A DNA stretch of 54,408 nucleotides from Desulfuromonas sp. CSMB_57 (GTDB lineage Bacteria > Desulfobacterota > Desulfuromonadia > Desulfuromonadales > Syntrophotaleaceae). The notes below the pieces were generated by a model. The model saw nothing but the letters and a program-made list of their open reading frames with translations, was not told where the DNA came from and searched no databases. This document shows positions 11,986 to 18,739 of this stretch, in pieces. The DNA lies in the NCBI RefSeq assembly GCF_020194955.2, contig NZ_JAFCIY020000002.1, positions 1 to 54,408 on the forward strand. Reading direction: 5' to 3'. A program made the translations under genes and the position numbers. The stretch's first letter is position 1; every line of letters starts with the position of its first letter.

Positions 11986-13143
11986 ATGAGATACGTATTT
12001 TGTATATTCAAATATTTTCCCTATGGGGGACTGCAACGTGATTTCTTGAAAATTGCACTGGAGTGTCAGCGACGTGGGCATCAAATAGCTGTATATACCC
12101 TGCAATGGCAGGCGGAAGTTCCGCAAGGTTTTGAAATAGAGATTATTCCTTCTCATGCCTTAACCAATGCCGGACGTTGCTTGCAGTTCGCAATGGCTGT
12201 AAAAAAGCGGTTGCAAGAATCACCGGCGGATTGTGTGATTGGTTTCAATAAAATCCCTGGCTTGGATATTTATTTTTGCGGAGATTCCTGCTTCGTAGCC
12301 CGGGAAAAATATAAAAAAAATTTCCTTTCTCGATTTGGATTTAGATATCTCATCTATTCTGCCTTGGAAAGGGCGGTTTTTGAAAAAGCCTCAAAAACTA
12401 AAATATTGACTCTGACCGCGTCGGAAAAGAAAAAATACCAATATTATTATCAAACTTCGGAAGAGCGGTTTCATCAGGTGCCCCCCGGAATCACCTGTGA
12501 TCCAATGGACATGGAGAGAGTTCAAAAATCACGGGATGCCTTTCGTCACGAAATGAACATTCCGGAAGGAACATGTTTACTTTTAATGGTTGGGTCGGGA
12601 TTTCAGACCAAAGGCCTTGACCGCAGTTTGTTGGCGTTCGCTTCGCTGCCTAATGAGTTGCGTAAGAAGTGTTTGCTATGGGTGGTTGGTGAGGGGACCG
12701 AAAAACCATTCGTACGGATGGCGCAGGAACTCGGTGTTGATGGCCAGGTGATGTTTTGGGGGCCGAGATCTGATGTGTTCAGGTTCATGTCGGGGGCCGA
12801 TATTCTATTGCATCCTTCCTACCATGAATTGGCAGGAATGGTATTGCTGGAAGCCATGGCGGTTGGATTGCCGATTCTGGTATCCGATGTATGCGGATAT
12901 GCGTTTCATGTTGCCAAGGCAAAGGCCGGCCTATTAATTTCGTCACCGTTTAAACAAAAAGAAATGAATGAAATATTAGAAAACATGTTGCGGATGTATA
13001 AAAATTCCAGTTGGAAGGTAAATGGAATGTCATATGTCGGCGAAAATGATTTTACCTCCCTGCCCGAAAAGGCGGCGGATATCATAGATTCATTTTCCAA
13101 GTATCATCGTAGATACGCTGATTGTAAAAAATTCTCTCACTAA
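11986..13143 (+). CDS. glycosyltransferase family 4, WaaG-like LPS core transferase
   Basis: This 385-residue GT-B enzyme resembles the WaaG group, which adds the first outer-core hexose to heptose II. It opens with FKYFPYGGLQRDFLKIA, the acceptor-side loop of WaaG, and has VIGFNKIPGLDIYFCGD, then GSGFQTKGLDRSL. The donor motif is HPSYHELAGMVLLEAMAVGLPILV. The 97 bases after the decayed kinase gene show nothing. Codon use is more AT-rich than in upstream genes, and the trend increases in the next genes. Confidence 0.8.
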   Translation: MRYVFCIFKYFPYGGLQRDFLKIALECQRRGHQIAVYTLQWQAEVPQGFEIEIIPSHALTNAGRCLQFAMAVKKRLQESPADCVIGFNKIPGLDIYFCGDSCFVAREKYKKNFLSRFGFRYLIYSALERAVFEKASKTKILTLTASEKKKYQYYYQTSEERFHQVPPGITCDPMDMERVQKSRDAFRHEMNIPEGTCLLLMVGSGFQTKGLDRSLLAFASLPNELRKKCLLWVVGEGTEKPFVRMAQELGVDGQVMFWGPRSDVFRFMSGADILLHPSYHELAGMVLLEAMAVGLPILVSDVCGYAFHVAKAKAGLLISSPFKQKEMNEILENMLRMYKNSSWKVNGMSYVGENDFTSLPEKAADIIDSFSKYHRRYADCKKFSH

Positions 13144-13212
13144 ATTAGAAAAAACTCAGTCTATGGTAAAATTAAAAGAGAATTGCTTTCTATTTAAATA
13201 AGAACAAGACTC

Positions 13213-14181
13213 ATGGACAATTCAGGCAGGCTACTAAATATAAAAAATATAATAAAAAATAGTCTAAGTTCAGTGATATGCAATGATTATGTATTTCTTG
13301 ACTTGCCTTATTATTCAAATATTGGTGACTCGCTAATTTGGAAGGGGACTGAATCGTTCTTGGCAACCCTTCCATATACATGCATATATAGAGCATCTAT
13401 TGAAACGTATATACCACCTGATATCGATAAAGATGTGATTATTTTATTGCATGGTGGTGGCAATTTTGGAGATCTATGGCGTAGGCACACCGAATTTGTT
13501 TTAAAGATTGTTGAAAGATTTTATGATAATAGAATAGTTATCCTTCCTCAAACAGTTCACTATCAAGATCAAACTGTAATGATGGAAGACGCCTTGAAGT
13601 TAAGCATGCATCCCAGATTGAGCATTTGTGCAAGGGATTCCGTGACTAAAAAGCTTCTGGAAAAATACTTTAGTAATCAAATTTTACTTGTTCCAGACAT
13701 GGCATTTTTTATTTTTCCGAAAAAAAATTCAGTTTGTAAAAACAAAAATTTCGATAAGACCTTATTATTGTTCAGGAGAGATAAGGAACTGCGGATTTTT
13801 AATGCTTTTGAAACGTTAAGAAAGCAAAACAATAATGACGAAAAAGATTGGCCTGGAATGGAAAAAAAGCTTTTTTGTACAAAAATTCTTTCCAGGCTAA
13901 TTAAAATTAGAAATAAGATTAAAAATAAAGTAGTCGTATTATATTTATCAAAGTTTATTGACTGGTATGCTCTAAAAATTCATATGCCGAGACTTTATAA
14001 AATTGGATTGAAGTTTATAAATAGCTACGAAAAAATATATTCAACACGACTCCATGGCGCAATCATGGGAATTTTATTGAAAAAACATGTTGTAATTTTT
14101 GACAATTCATATGGAAAAAATAAATCTTTTTATAATACTTGGCTTAATGGTTTTGAGTCTACCTATTTGGTAGAAAAATGA
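13213..14181 (+). CDS. polysaccharide pyruvyl transferase family protein
   Basis: This 322-residue protein resembles the CsaB/ExoV/WcaK family, which adds pyruvate ketals (from PEP) to sugars, although many members have unknown substrates. Visible family marks are LPYYSNIGDSLIWKGTE near the N-terminus, ILLHGGGNFGDLW, VILPQTVHY, CARDS and a C-terminal STRLHGAIMGILLKKHVV. The gene is strikingly AT-rich, with runs of A and T unlike the GC-rich backbone, which suggests recent transfer. It lies between a WaaG-like gene and a GT2 gene on the same strand. Confidence 0.82.
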   Translation: MDNSGRLLNIKNIIKNSLSSVICNDYVFLDLPYYSNIGDSLIWKGTESFLATLPYTCIYRASIETYIPPDIDKDVIILLHGGGNFGDLWRRHTEFVLKIVERFYDNRIVILPQTVHYQDQTVMMEDALKLSMHPRLSICARDSVTKKLLEKYFSNQILLVPDMAFFIFPKKNSVCKNKNFDKTLLLFRRDKELRIFNAFETLRKQNNNDEKDWPGMEKKLFCTKILSRLIKIRNKIKNKVVVLYLSKFIDWYALKIHMPRLYKIGLKFINSYEKIYSTRLHGAIMGILLKKHVVIFDNSYGKNKSFYNTWLNGFESTYLVEK

Positions 14182-14192
14182 GATGTTAAAGC

Positions 14193-15191
14193 ATGAAAGT
14201 TTCCGTTGTTGTTCCTGTTTATAGGGTTGAACCGTATATAAGGCGCTGTTTTGCATCGATATTAGTGCAAACATATACAAAATTGGAGTGCATTTTTATC
14301 GATGATGGGTCTCCGGATAATTGTTACTCAATTCTGAAAAATTTAATTGCAGATTATTGTGGTCCCATAGAATTAAAGTTGATAAAACATGAAAAGAATA
14401 TGGGGTTGTCGGTTGCGCGAAATACAGGGACGTTAGCCGCATCCGGAGATTATATTTTTTACCTAGATAGCGATGATGAAATTTCCGTAAATTGCATCCA
14501 TGATTTAGTCGAATTGGCGCTTAAATATCCCGGTGTTGAAATTGTACAGGGAAATACCAAAACGGTTCCGTTGCAAAGCAATGATTGGCGGAATATAAGG
14601 CTTAAACAATTTCCTGAATATGTAGATGATTTAAAATGGATAGAAAAACATTGTTTTTCAAACCCAAAAATTCCAGTAAATTCATGGAACAAATTGATTT
14701 GTAAGAGATTTATTCTGAATAACAATCTATATTTTTATGAAAATATCGTGCATGAAGATGAACTTTGGATGTTTTATGTATCAAGAAATCTTACCCGTAT
14801 CTGTTTTACTGGAAAGGTTACATATATACATTATATAAATGCACATTCGATAATGCAAAGTTCGAATAATTATAAAAAAATTTATTCATTTTTCAAGATT
14901 ATCGAACACTTGATGGGTGCAGGAACGGAGCAATTATCGGGCCTGGAACGGCAGTATATCCTAAAGTCGTTAAGAAGTAATATGATTAAGGTGAATGTTG
15001 CAAACAATGAAAAAGAACTTTTATCACTCTATAGAAATTTAGCTAAAAAAATTTTAGTTTTTTCATTGAGGAACTTCTTGATATTTGATTCTCTAGCAGT
15101 AGGTATTTTTCTTCTGCCAAGGTTCTTTTATTGTAGCTATTTTGGAAAAAAATTATCAAAAAATATCATTAAGGTCGTGCCTTTTTTTTAG
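14193..15191 (+). CDS. glycosyltransferase family 2 (GT-A)
   Basis: This 332-residue enzyme starts MKVSVVVPVYRVEPYIRRCF and carries FIDDGSPDN, GLSVARNTG and YFLDSDDEIS (written here as FYLDSDDEIS), the GT-A metal and nucleotide sites. The acceptor-side half has HEDELWMFYV. The C-terminal third is hydrophobic and basic, fitting membrane association. It is very AT-rich, like its upstream neighbour, which ends 11 bases before it. The sugar specificity is unknown. Confidence 0.85.
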   Translation: MKVSVVVPVYRVEPYIRRCFASILVQTYTKLECIFIDDGSPDNCYSILKNLIADYCGPIELKLIKHEKNMGLSVARNTGTLAASGDYIFYLDSDDEISVNCIHDLVELALKYPGVEIVQGNTKTVPLQSNDWRNIRLKQFPEYVDDLKWIEKHCFSNPKIPVNSWNKLICKRFILNNNLYFYENIVHEDELWMFYVSRNLTRICFTGKVTYIHYINAHSIMQSSNNYKKIYSFFKIIEHLMGAGTEQLSGLERQYILKSLRSNMIKVNVANNEKELLSLYRNLAKKILVFSLRNFLIFDSLAVGIFLLPRFFYCSYFGKKLSKNIIKVVPFF

Positions 15192-15296
15192 TTATGAACT
15201 TATTTTTAAAGTTCACGGCATTTTTCTAAACCTTTTTTGTGTATCCGGTTTTTGGTATGTTTTTCAAAATTAATTGGCAAATAAGGGATTTTTTTG

Positions 15297-16514
15297 ATGG
15301 GACTGAAAAAAATCATCAGGTTTTGTCTTAAGTTATGGAAGAGTCTATGGACCGCATTTCGTCGTTTTTGGTTTCTTTTTGGTGCGGATATTATTTCTGT
15401 TACAGGTAGTTGTGGCAAGACGAGTACGACCTTTTTTTTATCAAAGATTCTCTGTGACCAGGCGCCTTGCTATGTGGGTATAAGAGAGAACAGTGCAAAG
15501 ACTATTAAGAATAAACTTCGTAAAATTCGCACTCCCTATCGTTTCTATCTTCAAGAGTCCGGCATAGCCTATCCTGGTGATATGAAAAAGATTGTTTCTA
15601 ATTTGCGTCCAAATGTTGGTGTCGTTACGACAATTGGAAGAGATCATCACACAAGCTTTAGAACGCTGGAAGGTACCGCGGCTGAAAAGGGTATTTTGAT
15701 TGAATCTTTGCCGAGGTCTGGGGTCGCTGTGCTGAATGCGGACGATCCTTATGTGATGGGAATGAGGGGAAACACCAGGGCAAAGGTGCTGACCTATGGT
15801 TTGTCTGATGGCGCTGATGTTCAGGGAAGTGAAATTCATTCTGCATGGCCGAACCGTCTTTCTCTCTCTGTAAGGTATAAAGGAGAAATCGTTCGAATCG
15901 AAACGGGTCTGTTTGGTGATCTACTGGTCATTTCACTTTTGGCGGCGATTGCGGGAGGCCTGGCTCTCGGCGTTTCTCTTGAGCAATGTGCCATTTCTCT
16001 GCAGGGCGTTGAGTCATTTCCGGCGCGCCTTTCCATACATCGCAGTATGCAGGGGGGCTGGATTATTAAGGATACGGTCAAGGCGCCTTTTTGGAGCGTG
16101 GAACAGGTACTTCTTTTATTCAAGGACGCCGTCGCACCACGAAAAACGATCTTTTTGGGTTCATTTTCCGATACGCCGGGTTCGGATTCCAATAAGTATC
16201 GTCGGATGGCCAGGGTGGCCTTGGACGTCGCGGATCGAGTTGTCTTTGTGGGCGGAAAAGCTGGTTATGTCAAAAAAATGCAGGATCCTTCGCTGGATGG
16301 GCGACTTTTTGTTTTTGAATCTCATCGGGAGGCCTGTTGGTTTTTAGCTTCCGACATGATTGAAAATGAACTTGTTTTATTAAAATCTAATGTTAATTCT
16401 CATCTCGAAAGGCTAGTTTGCGGACAATATTCAGGGTTCAATTGCTGGAAGGATTCCTGTGAAAAACAAATTGACTGCGAAGAGTGCTCTGAAAGTGGGT
16501 TGACACATGGTTAA
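15297..16514 (+). CDS. Mur-ligase-like ATP-dependent amide ligase in a glycan locus
   Basis: This 405-residue protein has the central and C-terminal domains of Mur ligases. The P-loop is VTGSCGKTSTT, followed by VVTTIGRDHHTSFRTLEG and VAVLNADDPYV. The region IIKDTVKAPFWSVEQVLLLF replaces the MurF-type DDSYNANP segment. The usual MurF N-terminal UDP-binding domain is missing; instead a short basic, hydrophobic stretch precedes the P-loop. Mur ligases join amino acids to a carboxylate through an acyl phosphate, so an aminoacyl transfer onto a sugar acid or lipid-linked glycan is a reasonable inference. It is clearly not the peptidoglycan murF. ATG 15297 (AAGGGA upstream) is preferred to the preceding TTG. 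Confidence 0.75.
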   Translation: MGLKKIIRFCLKLWKSLWTAFRRFWFLFGADIISVTGSCGKTSTTFFLSKILCDQAPCYVGIRENSAKTIKNKLRKIRTPYRFYLQESGIAYPGDMKKIVSNLRPNVGVVTTIGRDHHTSFRTLEGTAAEKGILIESLPRSGVAVLNADDPYVMGMRGNTRAKVLTYGLSDGADVQGSEIHSAWPNRLSLSVRYKGEIVRIETGLFGDLLVISLLAAIAGGLALGVSLEQCAISLQGVESFPARLSIHRSMQGGWIIKDTVKAPFWSVEQVLLLFKDAVAPRKTIFLGSFSDTPGSDSNKYRRMARVALDVADRVVFVGGKAGYVKKMQDPSLDGRLFVFESHREACWFLASDMIENELVLLKSNVNSHLERLVCGQYSGFNCWKDSCEKQIDCEECSESGLTHG

Positions 16515-16562
16515 TACTTATTTTTTATTTTCCTATTCAACTTATTATACGTATTGAATATT

Positions 16563-17720
16563 ATGAAAAAAAAATCCTTTCTATTTGGTAGGATCGTTAA
16601 AAATATTCGCCTAGCTAAAATTAGGTTGCTTAAAACTCCAATTTTCATTGAATCTGGAAAAATCACAGAAAATTCGGTTTCTTTTTTAATTGAAAGGGAT
16701 GGACTAAAAGAAAAATTATATTTGAAATCAAATCATGTGCGTTTTCAAAATAGCCCTGATGTACCATTATTGATAGTATTGCTTCAGGCAATGAAGAGGA
16801 AAAGGAACATTTTTATCAGGGAAACCATCTCTAATGGTTTGATTGTTAATTTAATCCGTTATATGGATATATTCTGCACTTGGCATTCTTCTTATCGACC
16901 CATTAAAATCCATGTCAATAACCCCCCTGGTCAATTTGAAAAAAACTCTTTCGAAAAATCACGGCGAGTAGGGGCGTTTTTTAGCGGCGGGGTCGATTCC
17001 TTTTATACCTTTTTTAAGCACAAAGATGAAATCACCGATTTGATTTTTGTGCATGGCTTTGATGTCCCATTGAGTTCGGTGGAACTGCGTCAGCAAATTC
17101 GCGAAATGGGTTCAAAAGTGGCCGCCGAATGGGGAAAAAGGTTTGTTGAAATTGAAACCAATGCCCGTGATATTCTTAAAGGGTGGGGACATTGGGGTTT
17201 TCATGCGCATGGCCTTGCGTTGGGCACGGTTGCCAGATCCCTTTCCGGTAGTTTTCAAAAAATTTTTATTGCCAGCAGTACTTCCATAGATCAATTAAGG
17301 CCGTGGGGCTCACATCCGGAATTGGATAATCTGTTGGGGGATAGGACAATAGAGATCATCCATGATGGAGTGCAAAAACACAGAAACGAAAAAATTGAAT
17401 ATAGTGTCTCTTATCCTTTTTTCCTGGAAAATCTGCGGGTTTGCTATATAAATCCGGGTGAAGCCTATAATTGTTGCGAATGTGAAAAATGCTTGAGGAC
17501 CATGACTACTCTTTATGCGTTGGGGTGTCTCGGTAAAGCCATACGTTTTCCCAAGCCGTTAAATGCCCGGATGATAAGTAGGTTGGAATTGTCCGATGCT
17601 GGTCAAATTTCCTTTGTTAACTATGCAATAGCTAATTTACAACTTTTGAGGGAACATGGGATGGAAAATTCCGAAGTCTACAACGCTTGGCATGACCTTC
17701 TGGCTAGATACGGACATTAA
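16563..17720 (+). CDS. PP-loop ATP pyrophosphatase-like protein of unknown role
   Basis: This 385-residue protein has the PP-loop signature SGGVDS at residues 141-146 (in GAFFSGGVDSFYTF), so it should adenylate a substrate. Further marks are VHGFDVPLSSVEL, ASSTSIDQLRPWGSHPELD, and a cysteine cluster C304, C305, C307, C310 in YNCCECEKCLRTM. The cluster recalls the zinc site of QueC. It has an extra N-terminal domain of about 130 residues and lacks other queuosine genes nearby, so it is not called queC. It follows the Mur-ligase-like gene by 48 bases on the same strand. It is AT-rich. ATG 16563 is chosen over the TTG at 16554; neither has a clear ribosome site. Confidence 0.7.
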   Translation: MKKKSFLFGRIVKNIRLAKIRLLKTPIFIESGKITENSVSFLIERDGLKEKLYLKSNHVRFQNSPDVPLLIVLLQAMKRKRNIFIRETISNGLIVNLIRYMDIFCTWHSSYRPIKIHVNNPPGQFEKNSFEKSRRVGAFFSGGVDSFYTFFKHKDEITDLIFVHGFDVPLSSVELRQQIREMGSKVAAEWGKRFVEIETNARDILKGWGHWGFHAHGLALGTVARSLSGSFQKIFIASSTSIDQLRPWGSHPELDNLLGDRTIEIIHDGVQKHRNEKIEYSVSYPFFLENLRVCYINPGEAYNCCECEKCLRTMTTLYALGCLGKAIRFPKPLNARMISRLELSDAGQISFVNYAIANLQLLREHGMENSEVYNAWHDLLARYGH

Positions 17721-17770
17721 GAATTCCGGTAAAAATAGATATAATATTGATTATCTTCTTTTTTTCATTT

Positions 17771-18739
17771 TCAACTTTTCCTTGGTACGCCTTTTTTTCT
17801 AGAAAGTCGCTTATTTTTGTTAAGGTCATATTCTTTATAAAGGAAATGTTTTCCAAATATCCCAGTTAGTTGTCCAAATTTGGAATATATTTTATATTTT
17901 AATAGAAAGTATGCATCAATTGACCAAGCTCTGACAAAAAGCATGGATGCCAGGCACCAAAATATTTGAATTGACTTTGAAAATCCCCAAAATAATTTCC
18001 GCGCTACTGAATATTTTCGGACGAAAATTCGACTATAGCCTTGTCCCTTGCGAAAGGACCGTAGGAGAATCCATTTTTCTGTAAGGCGGTTTTGTGGGAT
18101 TTTTTCATAGACTATGGCCTCATCGCATGCGATGAGTTTTTTGCCGGAACAATATAGGCGGTAAAAAAATTCGGTATCGCTGCCCCCTGTCAAAGCAAAT
18201 GTCGGATCGAATTCTTCCCGAGGTTCATCTAAAGCTCGCGTGCGAATCATCACATTGTTTGTGGCCCCGGTTTTGAGCAATGTTCCTGTGCCGAACCTCT
18301 TCGTTTTAAAGCAAGGATTGGTTCTAGCCCAAGTTGGCGCATTGTCAGGCAAAAGACTGACAACAGGACCGAAAACCACGTCCGCCTGGTGTTCTATCAT
18401 TGCCTTATACATTGTTGCCAGCCAATTTTCAGCCACTGTCTCGTCGTCGTCAATGAAGGCAAAATAGTTCGCGCTGACCTTCCGGATAGCCCTGTTGCGG
18501 ACAAATGAAATGCCCTTTTCCGGCTCCATGTCATAATCAATCTGAAAAGACGACAATCTTTGGTGGGCCTCCACTATGGGGTACGCGCTTTTGTCGGTGT
18601 CGTTATCGACAATTATTATGCGAATTATAAAATTTTCAATGGAAACTTGATTTTCCAGAGATTGAAGAAGCTCTTTGAGCATTTCCGGTCTTTGACACGT
18701 GCCAATGCAGATGTCGATGGGTGTTTTTTCTAGTGACAT
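17771..18739 (-). CDS. glycosyltransferase family 2 (GT-A)
   Basis: This 322-residue enzyme has the GT2 marks DICIGTCQRPEMLKELL, IIIVDNDTD, KGISFVRNRAI and FAFIDDDETVAENWL. A later GGSDTEFFYRL segment and QNRLTEKWILLRSFRKGQG fit the acceptor side. The C-terminal part has a hydrophobic stretch near residue 255-285. It is convergent with the PP-loop gene (50 bases apart, no clear terminator) and shares the AT-rich base use of the island. It is followed on the same strand by no gene within the island, so it may be its own unit with the GT9 gene upstream. Confidence 0.85.
   Translation of the reverse strand: MSLEKTPIDICIGTCQRPEMLKELLQSLENQVSIENFIIRIIIVDNDTDKSAYPIVEAHQRLSSFQIDYDMEPEKGISFVRNRAIRKVSANYFAFIDDDETVAENWLATMYKAMIEHQADVVFGPVVSLLPDNAPTWARTNPCFKTKRFGTGTLLKTGATNNVMIRTRALDEPREEFDPTFALTGGSDTEFFYRLYCSGKKLIACDEAIVYEKIPQNRLTEKWILLRSFRKGQGYSRIFVRKYSVARKLFWGFSKSIQIFWCLASMLFVRAWSIDAYFLLKYKIYSKFGQLTGIFGKHFLYKEYDLNKNKRLSRKKGVPRKS

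Follow-up and report, generated by a model that had tools for sequence, protein, structure and literature searches.

Two adjacent genes in a 54,408-nucleotide stretch of Desulfuromonas sp. CSMB_57 (contig NZ_JAFCIY020000002.1, positions 1 to 54,408; the whole stretch is termed the window) encode a Mur-like amide ligase and a PP-loop enzyme that, as judged from the genomes compared here, form a recurrent but not obligate pair in a few distant bacteria. Both are full-length members of families whose motifs are conserved in distant taxa, which is more than chance would provide, and by their annotated surroundings they lie within a lipopolysaccharide (LPS)-core locus. The ligase is assigned by its sequence to a distinct Mur-type family that is not MurF, and the PP-loop protein is predicted to be QueC/QatC-like in fold, a likeness that had escaped an earlier sequence-only reading of this DNA and that suggests activation of a carboxylate with adenosine triphosphate (ATP). 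The favored interpretation, to which we give a probability of about 0.45, is that the two enzymes amidate acids on one and the same surface glycan and would constitute a carboxylate-amidating decoration module for the LPS core or for another, related glycan that is linked to lipid. The genes and their main motifs are as follows.

15297-16514, + strand: Mur-like amide ligase gene, 405 amino acids from ATG, lacking the N-terminal uridine diphosphate (UDP)-binding domain
15297-15383, + strand: cationic amphipathic helix, residues 1-29 (helix H3-29 in the model), in place of the MurF N-terminal domain
15405-15428, + strand: P-loop GSCGKTST, residues 37-44; G37, S38, G40 and K41 invariant in 11/11 aligned family sequences
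16071-16094, + strand: D259-TVKAPFW segment where MurF has its NANP acceptor loop; all 11/11 sequences keep D259 and K262
16443-16487, + strand: C-terminal CWx3Cx5Cx2C motif (C383, C388, C394, C397), present with identical spacing in 8/11 sequences
16563-17720, + strand: QueC/QatC-like PP-loop ATPase gene, 385 amino acids
16983-17000, + strand: PP-loop SGGVDS, residues 141-146
17307-17318, + strand: GSHP, residues 249-252, aligned with SGYPDC of QueC
17442-17492, + strand: C294-x9-CxxCxxC (C304, C307, C310), QueC-type zinc motif

The sequence-only reading had described two co-directional genes 48 bases apart, and the two open reading frames (ORFs) are so arranged, the second beginning 48 bases past the stop codon of the first; a TTG at 15294 is also in frame with the Mur-like ORF. 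Its description of the second gene as a PP-loop enzyme with SGGVDS and a cysteine motif agrees with the protein, which carries NCCECEKC.

Recurrence of the two genes

Whole-genome searches for both families covered 136-395 genomes each, all of one phylum. Among 136 genomes of the window's order, Mur-like genes clear of MurF were found in G112 (61%), G113 (59%) and G015 (36%), together with a remnant in G111. The remnant (locus L054, G111:C3, 1131-1424) aligns over only the last ~72 residues of the Mur-like gene, at 56% identity, and lies away from the contig end. Only G000 and G305 hold such genes among 395 genomes drawn from the phylum, and the 155 genomes of the class of G305 include three with a Mur-like gene (G305, G659 and G712). 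Genes of the PP-loop family occur in 14/277 genomes of the window's class and 8/155 of that of G305, giving 26 loci in all; two of the matches, at both ends of one contig in G112, may be one gene.

Fifteen Mur-like loci were read with their flanks, the G111 remnant being excluded, and a PP-loop gene of the window's family lies within 3.5 kb in three of them: the window, G305 and a Gemmobacter plasmid. The two genes are adjacent and about 70 base pairs (bp) apart in G305, which belongs to another class, and the genes that follow there encode an ATP-grasp amino-acid ligase resembling LdmS (210 bits, cut-off 475) and proteins similar to PaaK and RimK. On the Gemmobacter plasmid they are 1.5 kb apart with a pyruvyl transferase gene of family PF04230 between them, in the order formyltransferase, PP-loop, family 25 glycosyltransferase (GT25), pyruvyl transferase, Mur-like. 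This plasmid was the top match in the plasmid collection for the window PP-loop protein (20 records) and also for the Mur-like protein of Rhodoferax locus L069 (137 records, mostly MurF-like among those listed). Restriction of the pair to this genome is thereby refuted, and a literature search found no description of a Mur-like plus PP-loop gene pair.

Co-occurrence is also seen at the level of whole genomes. Three of the five Mur-like genomes in the window's order also hold a PP-loop gene (136 genomes, p 0.004), a value that takes no account of relatedness and comes from a sample containing both the G111 remnant, counted as Mur-like, and the window, itself selected because it has the pair; the corresponding figure in the class of G305 is two of three (155 genomes, p 0.007, relatedness ignored). 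In one of these genomes, G659, the Mur-like gene stops 252 bases short of a contig end and one of several PP-loop genes begins near the end of another contig. A looser PP-loop motif scan combined with the family profile gave the same locus classes as the first, stricter scan. A strict two-gene operon conserved across taxa was considered and rejected, only 3/15 Mur-like loci having a family PP-loop gene near. The earlier view of the two genes as a pair therefore holds for recurrence and fails for fixed pairing, as nine of the 15 Mur-like loci lack a PP-loop-type gene nearby and PF04230 genes are commoner near the PP-loop family.

Genomic setting and the PF04230 partner

The Mur-like and PP-loop genes close a co-directional run with three genes assigned by Pfam.

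11986-13143, + strand: GT4 glycosyltransferase, upstream in the same run
13213-14181, + strand: polysaccharide pyruvyl transferase family protein (PF04230), a recurrent neighbor of the PP-loop family
14193-15191, + strand: GT2 glycosyltransferase, between the pyruvyl transferase and Mur-like genes

Genes for GT2 and GT9 enzymes follow downstream on the other strand, and a GT9 heptosyltransferase, GmhA and an RfaP-type core kinase lie further upstream of the run (Pfam, NCBIfam), in keeping with the glycosyltransferase and pyruvyl transferase setting originally proposed. The genome's own QueC and a cluster of four Mur genes, including MurF on contig C18, are on contigs other than the window's, and the pair thus stands apart from peptidoglycan and queuosine genes, as the sequence-only reading had also held. 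The guanine plus cytosine (GC) content falls to 32-39% over 13-18 kb, versus 44-64% in the other kilobases of 5-24 kb, and for this reason the stretch 13000-18000 is probably a horizontally acquired cassette in the LPS-core locus.

By gene neighborhood, the PF04230 pyruvyl transferase is a steadier partner of the PP-loop family than the Mur-like gene. In 8/26 phylum loci (the window, G192, G199, G258, G659, G669, G753 and G787), the PP-loop gene has a PF04230 gene at most 2.5 kb away, as judged by Pfam. Ten of the 20 plasmid loci were inspected, and six of them (from Gemmobacter, from Azospirillum, two from Gloeothece and two from Priestia) carry one within two genes; the other four, Nostoc and three archaeal plasmids, have none at that distance. 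The distance is about 7 kb in G679, and no PF04230 gene was found near the PP-loop gene of G305. In G753 the PP-loop and PF04230 genes sit among GT9-like and GmhB-like genes, and further surroundings of the family include ABC O-antigen-export-like genes (both by eye) and prophage-like regions. On Gloeothece plasmids L149 and L199, the PP-loop and pyruvyl transferase genes are a few genes away from non-ribosomal peptide synthetase genes.

A proposed carboxylate-amidating module

Mur ligases proceed through acyl phosphates, and QueC uses ATP to activate a carboxylate, amides being the result in both cases. As the locus is one for LPS and includes a pyruvyl transferase, the most economical interpretation is that the two enzymes convert acids of a single glycan into amides. 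From the gene content, families, predicted folds, motifs and recurrence observed, we infer the reactions, their substrate, their order and a single shared pathway as follows. The PF04230 enzyme would add a pyruvyl-type acid to a sugar and leave a free carboxylate similar to the lactyl carboxylate of N-acetylmuramic acid (MurNAc), although it is doubtful that the pyruvyl group itself is the acid amidated. The Mur-like enzyme would then phosphorylate a carboxylate and join it through an amide bond to an amine that is probably an amino acid, and is expected to act at the membrane on a lipid-linked glycan because the UDP-substrate domain is missing and a cationic amphipathic helix is present. In a third step, the QueC/QatC-like enzyme would adenylate a carboxylate and amidate it with ammonia or an amine, much as QueC adenylates and amidates 7-carboxy-7-deazaguanine (CDG) in its first step.

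The place of the PP-loop enzyme may be taken by an AsnB-type enzyme in other Mur-like loci. AsnB-type genes are found beside the Mur-like gene in L068 and L069 (confirmed by Pfam) and in L072 (by eye, without a Pfam match). Peptidoglycan stem peptides are built by a division of labor between a ligase and an amidating enzyme, the latter exemplified by the AsnB-type amidotransferases LtsA/AsnB, and the AsnB genes next to other Mur-like genes would fit the same arrangement. The window PP-loop protein shares with these enzymes the PP-loop, and differs from them in having no Asn_synthase (PF00733) or glutaminase domain match in Pfam. A more specific version of the scheme, which we regard as unlikely, is that a peptidoglycan-like ligation system has moved onto the LPS core: PF04230 would make a lactyl-like acid, a membrane-associated Mur-like ligase would extend it by an amine or amino acid, and an enzyme of QueC/QatC fold, remodeled away from deazaguanine, would cap a carboxylate as an amide.

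Several findings weigh against the proposal that both enzymes serve one glycan. No PP-loop-type gene lies within 3.5 kb in 9/15 Mur-like loci, although among these nine the contig of L185 ends 252 bases away and one flank of L053 is 3.1 kb, and five Mur-like loci (L067, L071, L073, G112 and G113) seem by eye to be outside any glycan locus. Likewise, PF04230 is missing from the 2.5 kb around the PP-loop gene in 18/26 phylum loci, and some PP-loop genes sit with GNAT/ATP-grasp-like or BKACE-like genes (by eye). With Foldseek by itself, no PP-loop protein was matched below E 0.01. Finally, the window, G305 and Gemmobacter have PP-loop genes on different branches, that of Gemmobacter being long and unsure, so that the pair was not inherited as one unit and was assembled more than once or reshuffled. 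In the Mur-like tree, by comparison, Gemmobacter groups with the window's clade at 98/94 without L073 and 81/63 with L073.

Two of these neighborhoods were seen repeatedly in their own right. Loci L058-L062 share a run of a ~760-1240-residue transporter-like gene, a GNAT-like gene and the PP-loop gene, with a RimK-like ATP-grasp gene near in several, and a BKACE-like (keto acid cleavage) gene lies beside a gene of the PP-loop family in three genomes belonging to the same taxonomic family as the window (L057, L063 and L065; all by eye).

The chief rival, which is a real contender even if not the explanation we would choose, is that there is no shared pathway and that recombination in the low-GC stretch joined two independent glycan decoration genes acting on different residues. 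In its favor are the fall in GC at 13-18 kb, the Mur-like genes that lack a PP-loop companion (G112, G113, G712 and others), the other neighbors that PP-loop genes have in most genomes, and trees of the two families that do not track each other. The recurrence of the pair in G305 and Gemmobacter and the genome-level co-occurrence in two samples, with the limits on the p values given above, speak against it.

The PP-loop protein as a QueC/QatC-like enzyme

The assignment of the PP-loop protein to a QueC/QatC-like fold is based on a predicted model (predicted local distance difference test (pLDDT) 76, predicted template modeling score (pTM) 0.79, residues 1-50 mostly poor) and on profile comparison. 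The best structural match is QatC of the QatB-QatC complex, with model residues 23-379 on 9y01_B (Z 15.1, 299 residues, root-mean-square deviation 5.7), as obtained from a realignment able to rank only Foldseek's own candidates; QueC (3bl5, Z 12.4) and Cap9 (Z 11.2) come next, followed by MnmA, LarE, TilS and others at Z 8-10. A family profile built without L195 aligned with a profile of 27 QueC sequences, three of 30 QueC loci having been dropped by an ORF filter, over 200 columns (probability 88.7%, E 2.6e-6), with the zinc cysteines coinciding and the SGYPDC of QueC falling on GSHPELD. A single-sequence QueC comparison covered the zinc motif only, with a probability of 13.9%.

The window protein matched none of the Pfam families at E 0.1, PF06508 included, and was not among the PF06508 matches of its own genome; its only NCBIfam match was asn_synth_AEB (13.8 bits, E 0.022). 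A PHROGs family termed 'QueC-like' was found at E 0.0007-0.004 in four of five family proteins tested. The window protein had no PADLOC match at E 1; the sole PADLOC matches of nine family proteins were to PglZ (0.0027) and to a small protein of unknown kind (0.021), in one protein each and neither of them the window's. Searched by sequence against PDB chains, the window protein retrieved only small heat-shock proteins (E 0.7-0.83), and the family profile gave a weak match to GMP synthase (E 7e-5).

The protein resembles QueC in its SGGxDS and C-x(8-9)-CxxCxxC motifs and in the domain-wide profile match, and the QueC zinc motif C(x)8CxxCxxC is present in the sequence with a spacer one residue longer (x9). 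It differs from QueC in lacking a PF06508 match, in the absence of YPDC and VPxRN at the aligned places, and in an extra N-terminal part of ~130 residues. That it is QueC itself was rejected, as the genome has a separate QueC elsewhere. The likeness to QatC extends over nearly the whole chain, both proteins having a QueC core with N- and C-terminal extensions (QatC about 400 amino acids). The motifs of QueC and QatC used here, among them YPDC, are those given in PMC13329287, which names an HP motif for QatC. The window protein carries GSHP as a sequence motif. QatC differs in that its zinc motif reads C(x)19CGxCxxRR and it acts in anti-phage defense (qatABCD), whereas the window gene stands in a glycan context. 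No qatA (PF07693) or qatD (PF01026) family was found among eight neighbors scanned, and qatB has no Pfam model.

Two further explanations concern this protein alone. It is improbable that it is a WbpG-like N-sugar amidotransferase converting an acetamido to an acetamidino sugar independently of the Mur-like enzyme. WbpG is assigned a role in LPS synthesis and a place in the QueC superfamily in PMC13329287, in which the words 'polysaccharide', 'glycosyl' and 'pyruvyl' do not occur, but no WbpG-type NCBIfam model matched the window protein at E 0.1 and no HisH/HisF-type family was present among the eight neighbors scanned. Very improbable is a reaction like that of Cap9, proposed also for QatC, in which the enzyme would couple CDG or a related carboxylated base to an amine, here of the glycan or of a partner protein (the PF04230 or Mur-like enzyme, for example). 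QatC and Cap9 rank near the top of the structural matches, and canonical QueC, hence probably CDG, is present in 58/58 genomes of the class searched, including this one; the CDG-recognition motif YPDC is, however, replaced by GSHPxxD, and neither the PF07693 and PF01026 genes nor a PADLOC match accompanies the protein in the scans above.

Single genes of the PP-loop family were also found in each of nine viral-contig loci (L187-L195, L188 being the same as L189). Scans of viral contigs for Mur-like genes gave three weak matches and no clear relative. The neighbors of six of these loci were viewed, and some, for example L191 and L192, include phage structural-type genes (by eye).

The Mur-like ligase as a distinct family

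The sequence-only reading had described a ligase that lacks the MurF N-terminal domain, carries the P-loop GSCGKTST and has its NANP segment replaced, and the present analysis bears this out. Mur_ligase_M of Pfam matches at 89.6 bits against a cut-off of 24, and the best NCBIfam match is murF, at 144.3 bits against a cut-off of 288.6, or about half. The N-terminal domain is absent, the murF model (418 positions) aligning only from position 72 onward. The predicted model (pLDDT 82) has MurF chains 4qf5/4qdi as its best structural matches (TM-score 0.74-0.78), and the protein shares with MurF the fold of the Mur middle and C-terminal domains, the P-loop and conserved His/Glu/Asp positions (H117, E130, D149/D150).

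The differences from MurF are at the two ends of the protein, in the acceptor loop and in location outside the Mur cluster. In the N-terminal helix, the best 18-residue moment of 0.75 was equaled by 9/2000 shuffles and the net charge is +7; lysine and arginine exceed aspartate and glutamate in this part in 11/11 aligned family sequences. The place of NANP, which we take to be the acceptor segment of MurF, is occupied in the family by xKAP, with the window protein reading D259-x-x-K262-A-P. The CWx3Cx5Cx2C motif at the end of the ligase part, where the model has pLDDT <50, is probably a metal site. MurT of MurT/GatD is a Mur-type enzyme with a Cys4 motif that acts on a lipid-linked substrate. 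It differs from the present system in that no glutaminase was found among the neighbors scanned and a weak MurT match (20 bits) occurred in one relative only.

That the protein is an ordinary or spare peptidoglycan MurF with an unrelated PP-loop gene beside it is hardly credible: MurF is its closest fold and NCBIfam family, but the protein falls in a separate clade of 18 sequences at 100/99 apart from MurF (17 sequences at the same support without L073), scores half the cut-off, lacks the N-terminal domain, has a different segment in place of the acceptor loop, and coexists with a MurF in the Mur cluster on C18.

Among the matches listed, Mur-like relatives come from Rhodoferax, Propionivibrio, Undibacterium, Microvirga, Bauldia, a Rhizobiales metagenome-assembled genome (MAG) and a Thermoleophilia MAG. 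Propionivibrio has four tandem Mur-like copies beside sugar-transfer ATP-grasp genes, and a gene for a lipid A acyltransferase (PF03279) lies ~85 bp from the Mur-like gene of G712 (L186:8694-10991), a further link of the family to LPS. Some members are fused to a C-terminal peptidyl-transfer RNA (tRNA)-hydrolase domain. Four relatives were scanned with Pfam, and the fusion is present in L069, L070 and L072 and not in L068; it was also found in G305 (NCBIfam) and in G015, G659 and Undibacterium (by sequence).

L053:13390-15321; L069:9836-11740; L070:7587-15233; L071:9845-11788; L072:7555-9510; L179:8774-10630; L185:253-2094: Mur-like ligase with C-terminal peptidyl-tRNA-hydrolase domain

The domain of L069 retains the GLGNP, HN and DD motifs and has Arg after GGH where Pth has Asn.

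Biological implications

Two families not named in the libraries searched, the PP-loop family having no Pfam or NCBIfam family of its own and the Mur-like family having an architecture of its own, sit in surface-sugar loci. If they amidate glycan acids, the surface charge of the cell would be changed, and with it possibly recognition by phages and antimicrobial peptides. Single PP-loop family genes are found in nine viral contigs, as is also the case for phage genes that alter the cell surface. Amidation of glycan acids would also show how the QueC fold chooses its substrates. The reaction of QatC is called unresolved in PMC13279940, and a relative from glycan loci that keeps the QueC-type zinc motif could help with that reaction. 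Should the peptidoglycan-like version of the scheme prove true, it would represent another repurposing of the QueC fold besides those in tRNA modification and defense, with an AsnB-type enzyme in the same role elsewhere.

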